A stretch of DNA of 64,000 bases. It comes from an uncultured Kordiimonas sp. Lineage in GTDB: Bacteria > Pseudomonadota > Alphaproteobacteria > Sphingomonadales > Kordiimonadaceae. Below the pieces are notes generated by a model. The model was not told where the DNA came from and did not search any database. It saw nothing but the letters and a program-made list of their open reading frames with translations. Numbering within the stretch: position 1 is the first letter of the stretch; each line of letters begins with the position of its first letter. The stretch spans positions 1,550,001 through 1,614,000 of the forward strand of contig CANNDZ010000001.1 of NCBI GenBank assembly GCA_947503575.1. The letters run 5' to 3'. The position numbers and the translations under genes were made by a program. Below are positions 3,001-12,476 of the stretch, piece after piece.

Positions 3001-3975
3001 GGCACCAATGTGTCCGGCGCAGTTTCCGCGACAAACGGAACAGCCGGCGTGACAGCGGGAGAGAATGTTACAGGCGATGTTTCTGCAAGCACCGCGACGG
3101 TACAGGCTACTGGGGGGTCCGTGAATGCGACCGTCAGTGCGACCGGTGGCACAGCTAGCGTTTCCGCAGGCACCAATGTAACGGGAACCGTTTCGGGCAG
3201 TGATGTCACCGTGGCGGCTGGGAACACGGTGCAGGCTACCGTGAATGCCGATAACTCAGCCACTGTCGCCGGAGAGACCGTTGACGTGACTGTAAGCGCC
3301 GAGAGCTTGACGGTTGATGCAGATGTTGGTGCAACAGTTGCAGGTGATGTTGACCCCGAAGATGTAACCGCGACAGGCTCTGCCGACGTCGATGTGAATG
3401 GTGAGACTGTGGAGGCGCCTGAACCCGAGCCGGAACCTGAGCCAGAGCCCGAACCAGAGCCAGAGCCCGAACCAGAGCCGGAACCTGAGCCTGAGCCTGA
3501 GCCAGAGCCCGAACCAGAGCCTGAACCCGAGCCTGAGCCTGAGCCTGAGCCAGAGCCCGAACCAGAGCCTGAACCCGAGCCTGAGCCAGAACCCGAGCCC
3601 GAGCCAGAACCCGAGCCGGAACCTGAGCCTGAGCCAGAACTTGATCCTGCAACGGCGATTGAGGCACCAGATAACGCCAGTGCTATTGCTGACACAGCAC
3701 CGGTGTCGTCAGCTCCTAAAGATGCAGTCTTGCGATCAGATGCTGCGGGTGATGTTTTCTCTGCAGGGTTTTCACTTGGCATATTCCTTGACGAGTTAGC
3801 CCCTGCTGCGGGTCAGGATAGTGGTAAAGACGATAACGGGACCATGAAACGCAAGAGAAGTCCGCTCGCGGAGTTTTTGGCAGGTACATGGAGTTCTTTG
3901 ACTAAAAAAGATGAAGCTCAGCGCCCCGACAACGATCAAAGTCAGGAAGTCGAGGGCCGGGAAAGTGAAAAGTGA
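1..3975 (+). CDS. Giant beta-helix surface/secreted protein, 5'-truncated by window
   Basis: The frame is open from the first base, so the N-terminus lies outside; 1324 residues are visible. Short repeated turns rich in G, N, T, V and D (for example [19 protein letters not shown]) are typical of right-handed parallel beta-helix (PbH1/pectin-lyase-like) proteins and filamentous adhesins. A Val/Thr/Ala-rich tandem repeat follows at about residues 884-1068, then 37 Pro-Glu dipeptides (residues 1140-1213), then a charged tail of about 110 residues. No autotransporter barrel is visible at the C-terminus, and the last residues do not form a PEP-CTERM or LPXTG signal. An extracellular or cell-surface role is inferred from the fold; the export route and ligand are unknown. 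The outer-membrane-like gene at 4098 lies 122 bases downstream on the same strand. Confidence 0.8.
2650..3205 (+). repeat. Tandem 56-58-residue coding repeats in the beta-helix protein
   Basis: Similar units begin at about 2650, 2755, 2929 and 3097. The first is a short unit of 35 codons; the next two are 58 and 56 codons. The core reads [18 protein letters not shown] with conservative changes. Spacing in multiples of three keeps the frame. The repeats probably stack as coils of the beta-solenoid. Confidence 0.7.
3418..3639 (+). repeat. (Pro-Glu)37 dipeptide tract
   Basis: A 222-base stretch encodes 37 uninterrupted Pro-Glu pairs using mixed codons (ccc, cca, ccg, cct with gaa or gag) in blocks that repeat at 12-30 bases, so it probably grew by unequal exchange or slippage. 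A chain of this composition is stiff, extended and acidic, comparable in principle with the Pro-rich spacer of TonB. Here it separates the beta-helix from the C-terminal tail. Confidence 0.95.
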
Positions 3976-8894: not shown

Positions 8895-9132
8895 TTGGTT
8901 CCCCAACCGGTTCTTGTACCTTTCTCCTTGGACAAATATCCACGATAAAGTCATTGACGCAGTATGTCGGGGCCGGCTCATTAGCAATAGGCCGATACAA
9001 TTTAATACAAACTGTGACAGTTGCGTGACCATCTGCTGCAGATGAAGGTCTGGCATCGATTGACAGAACTAGTGATTTTCCGAACATGTTAAGTGGTGTG
9101 TCTGAGTCAACGGGAGCGCCATTGGCCTGCAC
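8863..9132 (-). CDS. Candidate small protein overlapping the regulator start
   Basis: An open frame of 89 codons from GTG 9132 (internal ATG possible) runs into the first 32 bases of the response-regulator gene. The residue mix is protein-like (SLVLSIDARPSSAADGHATV, then an IKLYRP stretch), more so than the frame that would extend the regulator upstream. No clear ribosome-binding site precedes it and I recognise no family. It could be a leader peptide coupled to the regulator, a remnant or chance. Confidence 0.3.
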   Translation of the reverse strand: MQANGAPVDSDTPLNMFGKSLVLSIDARPSSAADGHATVTVCIKLYRPIANEPAPTYCVNDFIVDICPRRKVQEPVGEPSAVQIKDTNR

Positions 9133-9245
9133 AAACAGTATCTGTTATACAACTCTATATGCAATCCTATATTCATTTGTTTCAGAAAAAATATATTAAA
9201 AACAATATCTTGAATAAGTTTCATAAGTTTTTTTATGTTTGGTAC

Positions 9246-9284
9246 TTGCACAACAAAATATAGTGTACTACATAACTAATACAC
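9246..9284 (+). promoter_or_regulatory. Promoter and probable YtrA-type operator
   Basis: A TTGCAC at 9246-9251 precedes a 22-base imperfect palindrome at 9263-9284 with half-sites GTGTACTA and TAATACAC (16 of 22 positions symmetric). It lies where a -10 element would be, so a bound repressor would block RNA polymerase. From memory, GntR regulators of the YtrA subfamily bind AGTGTA...TACACT repeats of about this spacing; the downstream gene encodes such a regulator. Autoregulation is the inference. Confidence 0.6.
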
Positions 9285-9587
9285 CGGCACGATAGAACGC
9301 CAGAACAGAAGGCCAAAAGGCTCAGATAAACAGGCGCAGCGAGGACAAGCCGGAAAAGAGGTCAGAAAAAGCGGCCCGAGCACGACAGAGACCAATAAAA
9401 AGAGCCAGCAAACTGGCCACTACAGCGAGGAAGTGAGGGGGTAACGGTACACCAGATGTGCCGCCCCCCCCCGGACCAAAAAAGGCCAAAAGGCCCGAGA
9501 CACGACAGAGATAATAAGGCTCTACAAAAACAAGAGCATCACAATAGAGCATCCACCAAAAGGGTGCCGCCAGCGAGGAGAAAGTAA
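9285..9587 (+). other. T-poor, repeat-bearing leader of the GntR/ABC operon
   Basis: Only 22 T in 300 bases (9291-9590). Direct repeats: AAGGCCAAAAGGC at 9309-9321 and 9482-9494; GGCCCGAG followed by CACGACAGAGA at 9373-9391 and 9492-9511; CAGCGAGGA at 9337, 9423 and 9571. It contains a run of nine C (9464-9472). A 43-codon frame from ATG 9456 ends in TAA abutting ATG 9588, but with so few T, stop codons are rare by composition, so it is not called as a gene. The AT-rich bases 9133-9245 before it look like promoter DNA for both directions. Confidence 0.6.
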
Positions 9588-9722
9588 ATGACAACCCGCA
9601 CTTACCAAACCAACAAACGCACCGTTCGCCGTAGTCGTCGTATTGCGCGTCAAACAGATGTGCTGACCGGGTCTGACCTGCAGCACGGTATTGTGAACAA
9701 CCGCACCAGCTTTGCAGCTTAG
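9588..9722 (+). CDS. Small basic 44-residue ORF leading the YtrA operon
   Basis: ATG 9588 is preceded by GAGGAG at 9575-9580 with a 7-base gap, a strong ribosome-binding site. The 44-residue product is Arg/Thr-rich in its first half (KRTVRRSRRIARQTD) and ends near 9722, 15 bases before the regulator start. Base composition returns to normal here, unlike the leader upstream. No family recognised; it may be a genuine small protein or a leader peptide that sets translation of the regulator. Confidence 0.5.
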   Translation: MTTRTYQTNKRTVRRSRRIARQTDVLTGSDLQHGIVNNRTSFAA

Positions 9723-9737
9723 GCGGAGGGAGGAAGT

Positions 9738-10097
9738 ATGACGCCGGATTGGACGGAAGACCAGCCGATCTACCGGCAACTGAAGGACAAGGTAGTTGCA
9801 GCGATAGTGGAGGGGACCATGCGCGAAGGCGAGGCCCTCCCATCTGTCAGAAATGTCGCTGTGGATTTACAGATAAATCCAATCACTGCCTCAAAAGCCT
9901 ATCAGGAGCTGGTAATGGACGGTTTAGTCGAGAAAAAACGCGGACTGGGAATGTTCGTGGTAGAAGGCGCGCGCTCAAAGCTTGTGGAAGCAGAGCGTGA
10001 TCGCTTCATGAATGAAGAATGGCCGCGGGTGATGGAAACGATCCAGCGGCTTGGTTTGGACGCAGAAACGCTGCTGAAGCGCAGCACTGCAAACTGA
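9738..10097 (+). CDS. GntR-family regulator, YtrA subfamily
   Basis: 119 residues with ATG after GGAGGGAGGAAGT, an excellent ribosome-binding site. The N-terminal winged helix shows the GntR signature (PIYRQLKDKVVAAIVEG, ALPSVRNVAVDLQINPITA, LVEKKRGLGMFV). The C-terminal part is only about 45 residues, the short dimerisation tail of the YtrA subfamily rather than a ligand-binding FadR or UTRA domain. It is followed after 11 bases by an ABC ATPase and then a permease, the usual YtrA arrangement. It probably represses its own operon through the palindrome at 9263-9284; the inducer, often a cell-envelope stress, is not visible. Confidence 0.9.
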   Translation: MTPDWTEDQPIYRQLKDKVVAAIVEGTMREGEALPSVRNVAVDLQINPITASKAYQELVMDGLVEKKRGLGMFVVEGARSKLVEAERDRFMNEEWPRVMETIQRLGLDAETLLKRSTAN

Positions 10098-10108
10098 GGG
10101 GGCCGATC

Positions 10109-10969
10109 ATGACTGAATATGTGATAGAAGCCAACGGCCTCACGAAATCATATGGTGATTTCAAGGCCTTGAAGCCATCCAGTTTCAAAGTGCCACTGGG
10201 TCGCATTCTGGGTGTTATTGGCGCAAATGGTGCCGGAAAAACCACAATGCTGAACGCAGTGCTCGGCCTCATGAGTTATGAGGGCGATTTATCTGTTATG
10301 GGCAACAACCCATCGAAAGAACGCGGCAAACTGATGCAGGATGTCTGCTTCATTGCCGACGTTGCGACCTTGCCTAAATGGATGAAGGTCAGCGAAGTTC
10401 TTGACTATGTTGAGGGCGTGCATCCGCGGTTTGATCGTGCGAGGGCTATGTCTTTCCTTGACCGAACCAATGTGCCACAGGACCGTAAGGTTCGTGCGCT
10501 ATCCAAGGGTATGACAGTTCAGCTTCATCTGGCTGTTGTTATGTCGATTGACGCCAAGCTTCTGGTGCTTGATGAGCCCACGCTGGGTCTAGACATCATC
10601 TTCCGCAAGCAATTTTATGCAAGCCTGCTTGAAGAATACTTCGATGAAAACCGCACAGTGATTGTCACGACGCATCAGGTTGAAGAAATCGAACATATCC
10701 TGTCCGATGTGATGTTCATTAAGGATGGTGAAATCATCCTTGAAGCTGAAATGGATGAGCTGACGCAGCAATTCATTGAAGTGATGGTAACGCCAGGCAT
10801 GGAAGAAGAAGCCCAAAAATTGGGACCGATTTCCAAAGGTGTCACTTTTGGTAAAACGACGTGTATTTATAAAAACATAGACCGCGAAAAGCTGGCCGAA
10901 TTGGGCGAAACACGCCGCCTGGGTCTTGCTGACATATTCGTGGCGACCATGACAGGAGAAGGGCAATGA
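10109..10969 (+). CDS. ABC transporter ATP-binding protein
   Basis: 286 residues from ATG 10109 after GAGGGGGCCGATC; the in-frame extension upstream overlaps the regulator gene and is rejected. Walker A is GANGAGKTT, the signature region reads ALSKGM, Walker B is LLVLDEPTLGLD and the switch His is in VTTHQVEEI. The signature LSKGM in place of LSGGQ is common in YtrB-like ATPases. Its last four bases overlap the start of the permease gene (ATGA). With the permease it should form a homodimeric exporter or membrane-stress pump under the GntR regulator. Confidence 0.92.
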   Translation: MTEYVIEANGLTKSYGDFKALKPSSFKVPLGRILGVIGANGAGKTTMLNAVLGLMSYEGDLSVMGNNPSKERGKLMQDVCFIADVATLPKWMKVSEVLDYVEGVHPRFDRARAMSFLDRTNVPQDRKVRALSKGMTVQLHLAVVMSIDAKLLVLDEPTLGLDIIFRKQFYASLLEEYFDENRTVIVTTHQVEEIEHILSDVMFIKDGEIILEAEMDELTQQFIEVMVTPGMEEEAQKLGPISKGVTFGKTTCIYKNIDREKLAELGETRRLGLADIFVATMTGEGQ

Positions 10970-11907
10970 ATACCTATGTCGCCCTTATAAAAAGAGAATT
11001 TCTTGATGGGCAAAACGGATACCTTCGAGTGCCAGTTATTCTTGCAGCGCTCTCCATTTTCCTGGTGGTTGTGTCCACCATCGGATTCGGCGAAACCATT
11101 GAGTTTGATGGTGTTTTTGATGACTATGAGATTGAAAACCTCGGCGATGCGTTAACGGAAGCTGCGGCTTCCAAAAGAGGCGACGAAGAGTTGCCTGCCG
11201 CTATTACGCTCAGTTACTGGGTAATGGCGGGCATCAGTTGGGTGGCGTTACCGTTTGTCGTCTTCTTCTCGTTGCTGAGTGCGCTGTATGAAGAACGCCG
11301 GGACCGCTCTATCCTGTTTTGGAAGTCAATGCCTGTCGATGACTGGCAGGAAGTGCTGGCCAAGTTTGTGACACCCGTCTTTTTGGCACCGATCATATTT
11401 TTAGCCATTGCCATAGGCTCGCAGATTGTTGTCGCCCTTTTCTTGAGCATTGTTGTGCTCTTTCAGGGAGGGCCTGTTCTCGAACTTTGGCCTTTGGCAT
11501 CCATGATCGGAACATGGATTTACTTCGCAACGCTTTACATGACAATGACCCTGTGGGTGCTGCCAATACTGGCTTGGGTGCTGTTTGTATCGGCCTATGC
11601 CTCTCGGTTACCCATAATGTGGGCTCTGTTGCCGCCAGCAATCATAATGGCAATAGAAGGTATCCTGTTCGAGACAACGACTGTTCTGCGTTGGATCGGT
11701 ATTCAGTTAGGTGGGTGGCAAACATACGCTTACCGCGACTTGAACGCAGATATCGACGGCCCGGCAGATTTCCTGGCATTAGTTTTTGGCGGCCTGCAAT
11801 GGGAAGCGTTGACTTACTCGTTGGGAAGCACGCAATTCTGGATTGGCCTGGTGATCGCCGCCGGGTTTGTGTTCGGAGCGATTGAGCTTCGCAAACGCGC
11901 CACCTAA
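10966..11907 (+). CDS. ABC transporter permease subunit
   Basis: 313 residues with about seven hydrophobic segments: roughly 20-40, 85-108, 125-152, 168-190, 194-210, 215-232 and 285-303. The loop after the first segment is acidic (EFDGVFDDYEIENLGDALTE). The segment YEERRDRSILFWKSMPVDD matches the coupling-helix region of ABC-2-type permeases, where the RDRSILFWKSMPV motif contacts the ATPase. Start overlaps the ATPase stop, so the two are translationally coupled. Substrate unknown. Confidence 0.88.
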   Translation: MNTYVALIKREFLDGQNGYLRVPVILAALSIFLVVVSTIGFGETIEFDGVFDDYEIENLGDALTEAAASKRGDEELPAAITLSYWVMAGISWVALPFVVFFSLLSALYEERRDRSILFWKSMPVDDWQEVLAKFVTPVFLAPIIFLAIAIGSQIVVALFLSIVVLFQGGPVLELWPLASMIGTWIYFATLYMTMTLWVLPILAWVLFVSAYASRLPIMWALLPPAIIMAIEGILFETTTVLRWIGIQLGGWQTYAYRDLNADIDGPADFLALVFGGLQWEALTYSLGSTQFWIGLVIAAGFVFGAIELRKRAT

Positions 11908-11965
11908 TCAAAGAAGGTCGCCGCTATGCACGGCGCCCATACAGCAGGCCTAGCCTGCGACAGCG

Positions 11966-11998
11966 AGGCCACCCTAATAAAACGGGGTGGCCTTTTTT
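11966..11998 (+). terminator. Rho-independent terminator of the YtrA/ABC operon
   Basis: A nine-pair stem (AGGCCACCC with GGGTGGCCT), ten-base loop and six T. A smaller hairpin, GCAGGC-CTA-GCCTGC at 11944-11958, precedes it without a T run. Confidence 0.9.
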
Positions 11999-12059
11999 GC
12001 TTTTAGATACAGGTTATGAGTTGCCCAAACATTCAGTTATGTGACGCTCGTTGAGCCCG

Positions 12060-12476
12060 TCACTTTTCCATCTCGAACGTTTCAAACAGAAACTCGGGGC
12101 TTACAGAACAGCTCACCAAAGTCCAATCCCCGTTGCTTTTTGCCCGTTGCCATTGGTTCGCAGGGGCCAGCAATTGGGGCTGCTCGTTCGCTCCGACGTT
12201 AAGGCCAAGGGTTTGGGCATCAACGCTGCCGTCTTCTGCCCGAATTTCTAGCGTCAGCGGCGCCCCGGCATGCCAGAACCACAGTTCATCACCATCCGTG
12301 CGGTGCCAGCGACTAAAGTCAGGCAATTGAAGAAAATATATCGCTGATGCGCAGGCCCTTGTCTGGCTGCCAGACGTTACTGACACATTGGCGTTGCGAT
12401 AGGTTCTTCGATAAAACCCACCTTCAGGGTGAGGCTCAAGACGAAGTTGGTCTACAATTTCTTCAATTGTTTGCAT
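12060..12476 (-). CDS. Cupin-fold protein, DUF985 (Cupin_5) family
   Basis: 138 residues. PHPEGGFYRRTYR near the N-terminus, AIYFLQLPDFSRWHR, DELWFWHAGAPLTLEI and the late SCSVSPEFLFETFEM are the recognised blocks of the DUF985 cupin family (yeast YML079w-like). The fold is a double-stranded beta-helix; His and Glu residues in the WHR and DELW blocks line the pocket. The biochemical role of the family is unsettled. It is divergent from the methyltransferase gene, with 95 bases between them. Confidence 0.85.
   Translation of the reverse strand: MQTIEEIVDQLRLEPHPEGGFYRRTYRNANVSVTSGSQTRACASAIYFLQLPDFSRWHRTDGDELWFWHAGAPLTLEIRAEDGSVDAQTLGLNVGANEQPQLLAPANQWQRAKSNGDWTLVSCSVSPEFLFETFEMEK

Follow-up and report, generated by a model that had tools for sequence, protein, structure and literature searches.

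The window, a 64,000-nucleotide stretch of contig CANNDZ010000001.1 of an uncultured Kordiimonas sp., contains an operon in which a short Arg-rich reading frame precedes genes for a GntR-type regulator, an ABC transporter ATPase and a putative permease (Table 1). The regulator shows the features of the YtrA subfamily of GntR proteins (a GntR HTH, a short C-terminal part and an adjacent ATPase), and no subfamily model passed. The promoter was placed by alignment, which predicts a transcription start at about 9281-9283. The operator GTGTACTACATAACTAATACAC was not found at up to 2 mismatches in 336 other genomes of the class. Similar arrangements were detected in relatives by DNA, by YtrA protein (44 loci) and by a profile of the small ORF; the rows nearest the window locus in a YtrA+ATPase tree include uncultured Kordiimonas, and no relative of the locus was present among viral contigs with YtrA. 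The initial annotation placed untranslated RNA or spacer between the promoter/operator and the first gene. The conserved promoter and operator point to a transcribed leader, as it had proposed, but the first cistron is the Arg-rich microprotein gene, which it had overlooked. By eye, the first ten ytrA codons (9738-9767) show almost no DNA differences across many loci, even at synonymous sites.

Table 1. Features of the leader and operon, with positions in the window, and of the sRNA-like gene elsewhere in the same genome.
Feature	Position	Strand	Basis or remark
-35 element TTGCAC	9246..9251	+	17 nt ahead of -10; TTG at the equivalent place relative to the operator in 40/40 loci printed
YtrA-type operator GTGTACTACATAACTAATACAC	9263..9284	+	overlaps -10 box; 0-5 mismatches in 28/28 family loci (<=6 allowed)
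-10 element TACATA	9269..9274	+	inside operator; by alignment; absent from promoter-scan listing
T-depleted structured leader	9285..9587	+	composition and folding
Strongly conserved 5' box CGGCACGATAGAACGCCAGAACAG	9285..9308	+	alignment A1, 20 leaders
sRNA-complementary site 1, CAGCGAGGA	9337..9345	+	antisense match to seed
sRNA-complementary site 2, GCCCGAG + CACGACAG	9374..9388 (9374-9380 + 9381-9388)	+	antisense match to seed
Predicted hairpin A, GCCAG-CAAA-CTGGC	9404..9417	+	fold and per-sequence shuffle test
sRNA-complementary site 3, ACAGCGAGGA	9422..9431	+	antisense match to seed
Predicted central G-C hairpin B	9437..9472	+	fold
Predicted hairpin GGCC-AAAA-GGCC	9484..9495	+	fold, repeat (AAGGCCAAAAGGC; not antisense to sRNA)
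sRNA-complementary site 4, GCCCGAG + CACGACAG	9493..9508 (9493-9499 + 9501-9508)	+	overlaps 3' arm of hairpin 9484..9495
Predicted hairpin GCTCT...AGAGC	9519..9537	+	fold
Predicted hairpin GCATCC...GGGTGC	9549..9567	+	fold
sRNA-complementary site 5, CAGCGAGGA	9571..9579	+	overlaps Shine-Dalgarno region of small ORF (-17 to -9)
44-aa Arg-rich microprotein gene (first cistron)	9588..9722	+	codon-position conservation, profile
ytrA-like GntR regulator, 119 aa	9738..10097	+	PF00392, E 5.1e-12
ABC transporter ATPase	10109..10969	+	PF00005, E 8.1e-20; best NCBIfam PmtA, below cut-off
Putative ABC permease	10966..11907	+	position alone; no Pfam family
sRNA-like gene	C2:639410-639580 (own genome)		conservation, hairpin, T-run

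The region between the operator and the microprotein gene contains 119 A, 79 C, 84 G and 21 T in 303 nt, compared with 24.2% T in the whole window, in agreement with the scarcity noted initially (22 T in 300, against about a quarter elsewhere). We counted T in 915,442 windows of 300 nt on both strands of 464 kb sampled from the 3.6-Mb genome (mean 71.6, sd 10.8), and the lowest window on either strand was that starting at 9281, with 20 T. Since the next lowest cluster had 27 T, all 77 windows with 25 T or fewer were assigned to the leader. Seven other clusters with up to 36 T all lay within frames that run for 298 codons or more between stops on one strand, whereas that of the leader lay outside any such long frame (stop-to-stop 62 and 174 codons). 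A tandem repeat with units of 12/48 nt, lying within a long open frame (window 3417-3644), forms the second lowest cluster of the sample. The depletion begins at the predicted transcription start, ends where the small ORF begins and is conserved across Kordiimonadaceae: in 29 leaders of at least 200 nt, T averaged 9.7%, lower than in the 200 nt ahead of them (33%) or in downstream sequence (21%), dropping at the predicted start and recovering at the start codon. The earlier proposal of strand-biased selection rather than ordinary drift is supported. A coding leader was rejected on account of 1-nt indels relative to a close relative. Avoidance of start codons was rejected as a cause because it was not specific (ATG 68 and GTG 51, against 79 and 41 expected from dinucleotides).

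A transcript of this region had been considered unlikely to fold strongly. This was contradicted by the folding of the plus strand (z = -3.88), since 0 of 100 dinucleotide shuffles were as low (minus strand: z = -1.15, 14 of 100), and all 29 long leaders beat their shuffles (each z below -2, mean -4.07). In these predicted structures about 35% of G and C but 90% of A were unpaired, and 75% of the pairs in leader stems were G-C; the modelled architecture is one of G-C hairpins strung on A-rich strands. Because ACGACAG was misaligned in some rows of the MAFFT alignment A4, model R1 derived from it was limited to 9 pairs and hairpin A was judged sequence by sequence; 17 of 20 leaders were significant against shuffles at p < 0.05, with 10 distinct helices (the segments of L025 were misbounded). 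Openness of the leader motifs was 0.74 and 0.69, against an average of 0.59 in the 29 long leaders. Random in silico swaps of A to U lowered motif access in 29/29 leaders and swaps of A to C in 28/29, from 0.711 in the native sequence to 0.488 and 0.545 respectively, indicating that A-richness matters and that U is the worse substitute. Leaders contained 55 A-R-N runs, compared with 38.7 (sd 5.2) in shuffles, and 5.86 per kb compared with 0.53 in coding sequence; such tracts are suited to Hfq. The view that the leader belongs to no known type still stands, as Rfam gave a sole match in window 8900-12100, located after the permease (E 0.1), and none at E <= 1 in 8 other loci. A CsrA-regulated leader was rejected, with 0 matches to PF02599 in the genome (control matches in 3/14). 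No clear signature of Rho utilisation (C over G, YC-rich) was seen in the leaders (mean C 0.236, G 0.259; YC 0.090 versus 0.100 downstream); the best 78-nt window per leader had a C-G excess of 4 to 17.

The short direct repeats described initially were present, with AAGGCCAAAAGGC and CACGACAGAGA occurring twice and CAGCGAGGA three times. A scan of 45 genomes, including our own, with CGACAGCGAGGA revealed a second conserved intergenic site, the other strand of which reads AUCCUCGCUGUCGUGACUCGGGCCGGGU...CCCGGCC(A/C)UUUUU in our genome and in 6 of the 7 relatives printed; the seventh, L136, was a different site. Eleven rows passed a looser filter, including L132, which is not this gene. The conserved intergenic sequence has a hairpin and a T-run, resembles an sRNA gene and, by eye, follows an apparent pilus-assembly gene. 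Sequence and fold predict an intrinsic terminator at its 3' end (GGCCGGG..CCCGGCC plus T-run), and we infer that the sRNA is expressed. Sub-threshold Rfam matches extended over the full models of SorX (RF02784; 32.8 bits, E 6.7e-5 on L137 and 28.7 bits, E 0.0011 in our genome; gathering score 46.6) and SorY (RF02651; 35.6 bits, E 2.5e-4 on L137 and 32.3 bits, E 0.0016 in our genome; gathering score 111). As both gathering scores were missed, the sRNA was not filed as a SorX or SorY member, and these two appear from sequence to be the nearest relatives found.

Within the sRNA-like gene, a single 26-nt stretch is the antisense counterpart of the repeats CACGACAG and CAGCGAGGA and of GCCCGAG, which also recurs in the leader, so that most of the repeats match this gene, a relation that the initial annotation had missed. 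Each leader site is a portion of GCCCGAGTCACGACAGCGAGGAT, which is complementary to the sRNA seed AUCCUCGCUGUCGUGACUCGGGC; as the 26-nt seed has three A, its complement has three U. The seed was partly paired in the model of the whole sRNA (mean unpaired 0.43; 0.57 when shortened). The leader in the window has seven antisense stretches, grouped as five sites. Across the leader and first 40 nt of the ORF in 40 loci (11,853 nt), we counted 163 stretches of at least 7 nt antisense to the seed, compared with a mean of 16.5 and a maximum of 26 in 50 dinucleotide shuffles; the loci share ancestry, and per-locus counts are not independent. Control readings of the seed on the same sequences gave 1 match (sense), 15 (complement alone) and 47 (reversed), the last of which indicates that composition alone yields some matches. 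Coding sequence of ytrA and the ABC genes contained 26 antisense stretches in 73,842 nt.

An antisense stretch lay within -35 to +25 of the start codon in 31 of the 40 loci, the other nine having none of 7 nt or more there, and the last site overlapped the Shine-Dalgarno region in 20 of the 29 long leaders. At least four stretches were present in 25/29 long leaders. Outgroups with short leaders had zero to three, several on or beside the start codon; in the outgroup loci L063, L064, L068 and L074 the nearest stretch was inside the first codons, and L061 had no antisense stretch of 7 nt or more at all. ACGACAG-type motifs numbered 59 in the leaders. A putative compensatory pair was seen in one case (1/5 f2 loci), in which the sRNA of G042 reads GACTCAGG and leader L067 reads CTGAGTCACGACAGCG.

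Related motifs occurred outside the leaders. At G000:C1:806118 and C3:42398 (L075, L081), ACAGCGAGGA is found shortly upstream of an ATG, making these candidate further sRNA targets. The presumed operon terminator (window 11957-12000) is preceded by GCGACAGCGAGG, part of an sRNA site, and GACAGCGAGG is also present in L034 and L036. A GACAG motif follows the permease in 13 of 42 loci examined, in some cases not before an ORF; it precedes an ORF downstream of the permease in L064, L067, L068, L069, L072 and L074, which makes this later cistron a further possible partner of the sRNA. By eye, the translations of ORFs after the permease share an LPVxLLRHA-like stretch in several loci.

When eight sequences of the small ORF were compared in pairs over their first 27 codons, differences fell mainly on third codon positions (96/97/324) and were mostly synonymous (254 codons versus 134 that were not). 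A profile of the ORF matched 48 of 59 genomes at E <= 0.1, 35 of these at E <= 1e-4, and the top match in each genome was at ytrA. In a class-wide search of 336 genomes it gave, besides its own, 1 match (E 2.4e-5), at a locus where genes resembling those for MutS and GlnD, and no ytrA, were recognised by eye. The microprotein had no Pfam, NCBIfam or PHROG family match and none in a PDB search. Kinship with L34 or with DUF1127, the family of CcaF1, was rejected, as neither Pfam matched at E <= 10 in 34 members. The N-terminal half is predicted to be helical (residues 1-20, pLDDT 87-95; overall mean 77), and the protein carries an RRxRRxAR core. In an Eilatimonas locus (L060, 2594-2948) the Arg-rich ORF is duplicated in tandem. 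L050, L051 and L054 lack it and have, by eye, a similar 18-codon ORF (like MPNVPAWIAAPFLERKPR) overlapping the ytrA start. The idea that the microprotein is a dedicated cargo of the exporter is disfavoured, since nine loci retain ytrA and the ATPase but lack the microprotein.

The sRNA gene was found by DNA match in 43 of 59 relatives: in families f1 (29/29), f2 (6/6), f6 (5/6) and f7 (2/2), in 0/11 genomes of f3, f4 and f5, and in 1/5 of f8, where the terminator part alone matched. At E <= 1e-4, the small ORF was detected in f1 (27/29), f2 (5/6), f6 (1/6) and f7 (2/2), and in none of f3, f4, f5 and f8. Four further f6 genomes, paired with loci by contig and match coordinates, carry diverged ORFs at loci found through YtrA (L062, L063, L066 and L068, with L062 and L063 doubtful). 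Eight of the nine loci mentioned above are devoid of the ORF and the ninth (L073) has a degenerate one; their leaders contained 0 antisense stretches. The sRNA was found in 0/9 of these genomes, which are MAGs and may be incomplete, whether blastn was used or a 20-nt pattern of the seed allowing up to 3 mismatches; the looser pattern also matched 2/6 f5 genomes (2-3 mismatches), and a reversed control matched 5/46 genomes. In the YtrA+ATPase tree (44/45 rows; L031 left out as incomplete, L066 partial), the nine formed one group (support 99/91) nested among long-leader loci. Their records are labelled Robiginitomaculum, a genus of Maricaulales. Either these genomes lost the ORF, the sites and the sRNA jointly or, as the Maricaulales label allows, the operon was transferred into an sRNA-less lineage and its leader decayed; under either scenario the leader is linked to the sRNA. 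Sites and sRNA were thus present together in 29/29 genomes and absent together in the nine. The exceptions were L066, with a site and no sRNA found in its genome (its pattern match was its own leader), and G009 (76% complete), G033 and G047, with the sRNA and no clear small ORF.

The T-depleted region is likely to be the 5' untranslated leader of the microprotein-ytrA-ABC operon, with an array of sites for one trans-encoded SorX/SorY-like sRNA, and may also be a sponge. Judged from complementarity, pairing of the sRNA with the leader is very probable; for a sponge role our confidence falls a little short of even. A plain target, in which the sRNA controls the microprotein via reiterated sites without titration, shares the pairing claim, so that the two overlap, and we regard it as a serious if lesser possibility. 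The stretches near start codons and the small number in short-leader outgroups are what it would predict, but the four or more stretches of most long leaders exceed the need of an initiation block. It is unlikely that the microprotein instead binds ACGACAG/AGCGAGGA motifs of its own leader: its RRxRRxAR core and predicted helix would suit such autoregulation, as would the joint absence of motif and ORF, but the antisense relation of both motifs and GCCCGAG to a single sRNA seed, and the absence of the sRNA from the nine site-less genomes, would be left unexplained.

Composition could also have been selected for its own sake, giving a leader poor in U, which RNase E would be unable to cleave, and a start site that is kept open. 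RNase E sites follow the rule RNWUU, and these occur at 0.26 per 100 nt in leaders versus 1.43 downstream (none in 15/29); the start-codon region is predicted to be open as well (unpaired 0.855). We find this reading quite improbable, because it accounts neither for the exact conserved motifs nor for their match to the sRNA. Model R1 weakly finds the strand opposite the sRNA gene (E 0.404, own genome), as expected if that strand were another copy of a cis module and no sRNA were made; given the terminator hairpin and T-run on the sRNA strand, and the resemblance of that strand to SorX/SorY, this is very improbable. Against the sRNA-site array itself stands the main repeat AAGGCCAAAAGGC, which is not antisense to the sRNA, forms GGCC-AAAA-GGC hairpins and is left unexplained by pairing.

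A leader made up of such sites would probably serve as a regulatory switch or as a sponge, and would not be a product of random drift. With the last site lying across part of the Shine-Dalgarno region, pairing there should block the translation start of the microprotein. Not all of the upstream sites can influence initiation, and they would thus also titrate the sRNA, as a sponge made on YtrA release, or steepen the response. U would be scarce because the sites complement an A-poor seed and because A-rich linkers and G-C hairpins keep the sites unpaired; the linkers and hairpins would also offer A-R-N tracts for Hfq. A more speculative version, which we consider rather doubtful, is a purpose-built, nearly U-free sponge with about five antisense copies on G-C hairpin spacers, in which YtrA release frees the sRNA regulon and the microprotein assists or reports pairing.

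In sponges of the chbBC-ChiX type, part of an mRNA is complementary to the seed of an sRNA, as here; in contrast to them, this leader has several sites in a 5' leader, a uniform U-poor design and a position beside a likely regulated gene. Leaders of the rpoS type are long and structured, with A-rich Hfq tracts; ours resembles them in length, structure and A-R-N tracts, and differs in its reiterated sites for one sRNA and its start region, predicted to be open. The sRNA shares with Rhodobacter sphaeroides SorX/SorY a hairpin, a CUC..CUGU..G stretch and a GGCCG-type terminator with T-run, but its seed differs, its scores are sub-gathering, and its gene is intergenic rather than in the 3' UTR of an ompR gene. 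According to one report (PMC9438474), SorX depends on Hfq, is cut by RNase E from a precursor of 116 nt to a length of 75 nt, and represses potA, a transporter mRNA, at the level of translation. In the CcaF1-CcsR1-4 system of R. sphaeroides, as described in PMC8625941, a small RNA-binding protein is encoded beside reiterated RNA elements; a small-protein gene likewise adjoins such elements here, but the sRNAs follow the gene in that system, and in ours the repeats precede it and form the target side. The pairing of a GntR regulator with an ABC exporter recalls YtrA operons and PmtR-Pmt, in which the regulator controls the exporter (PMC5080381), although NCBIfam scores here were 62 versus a cut-off of 200 and 148 versus 350 bits. 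Among the matches listed in the literature on Kordiimonas and Kordiimonadales regulation, and on SorX/SorY with Kordiimonas or Iodidimonas, the leader-sRNA pair was undescribed.

An odd base composition thereby becomes a testable sRNA-mRNA pair in the Kordiimonas group, and a microprotein family lacking a Pfam, NCBIfam or PHROG model is added. The pair would connect a repressor-controlled ABC operon with a stress-type sRNA. Our results suggest that extreme U-scarcity in an untranslated region may flag an array of sRNA sites, a signature for which other genomes can be scanned.
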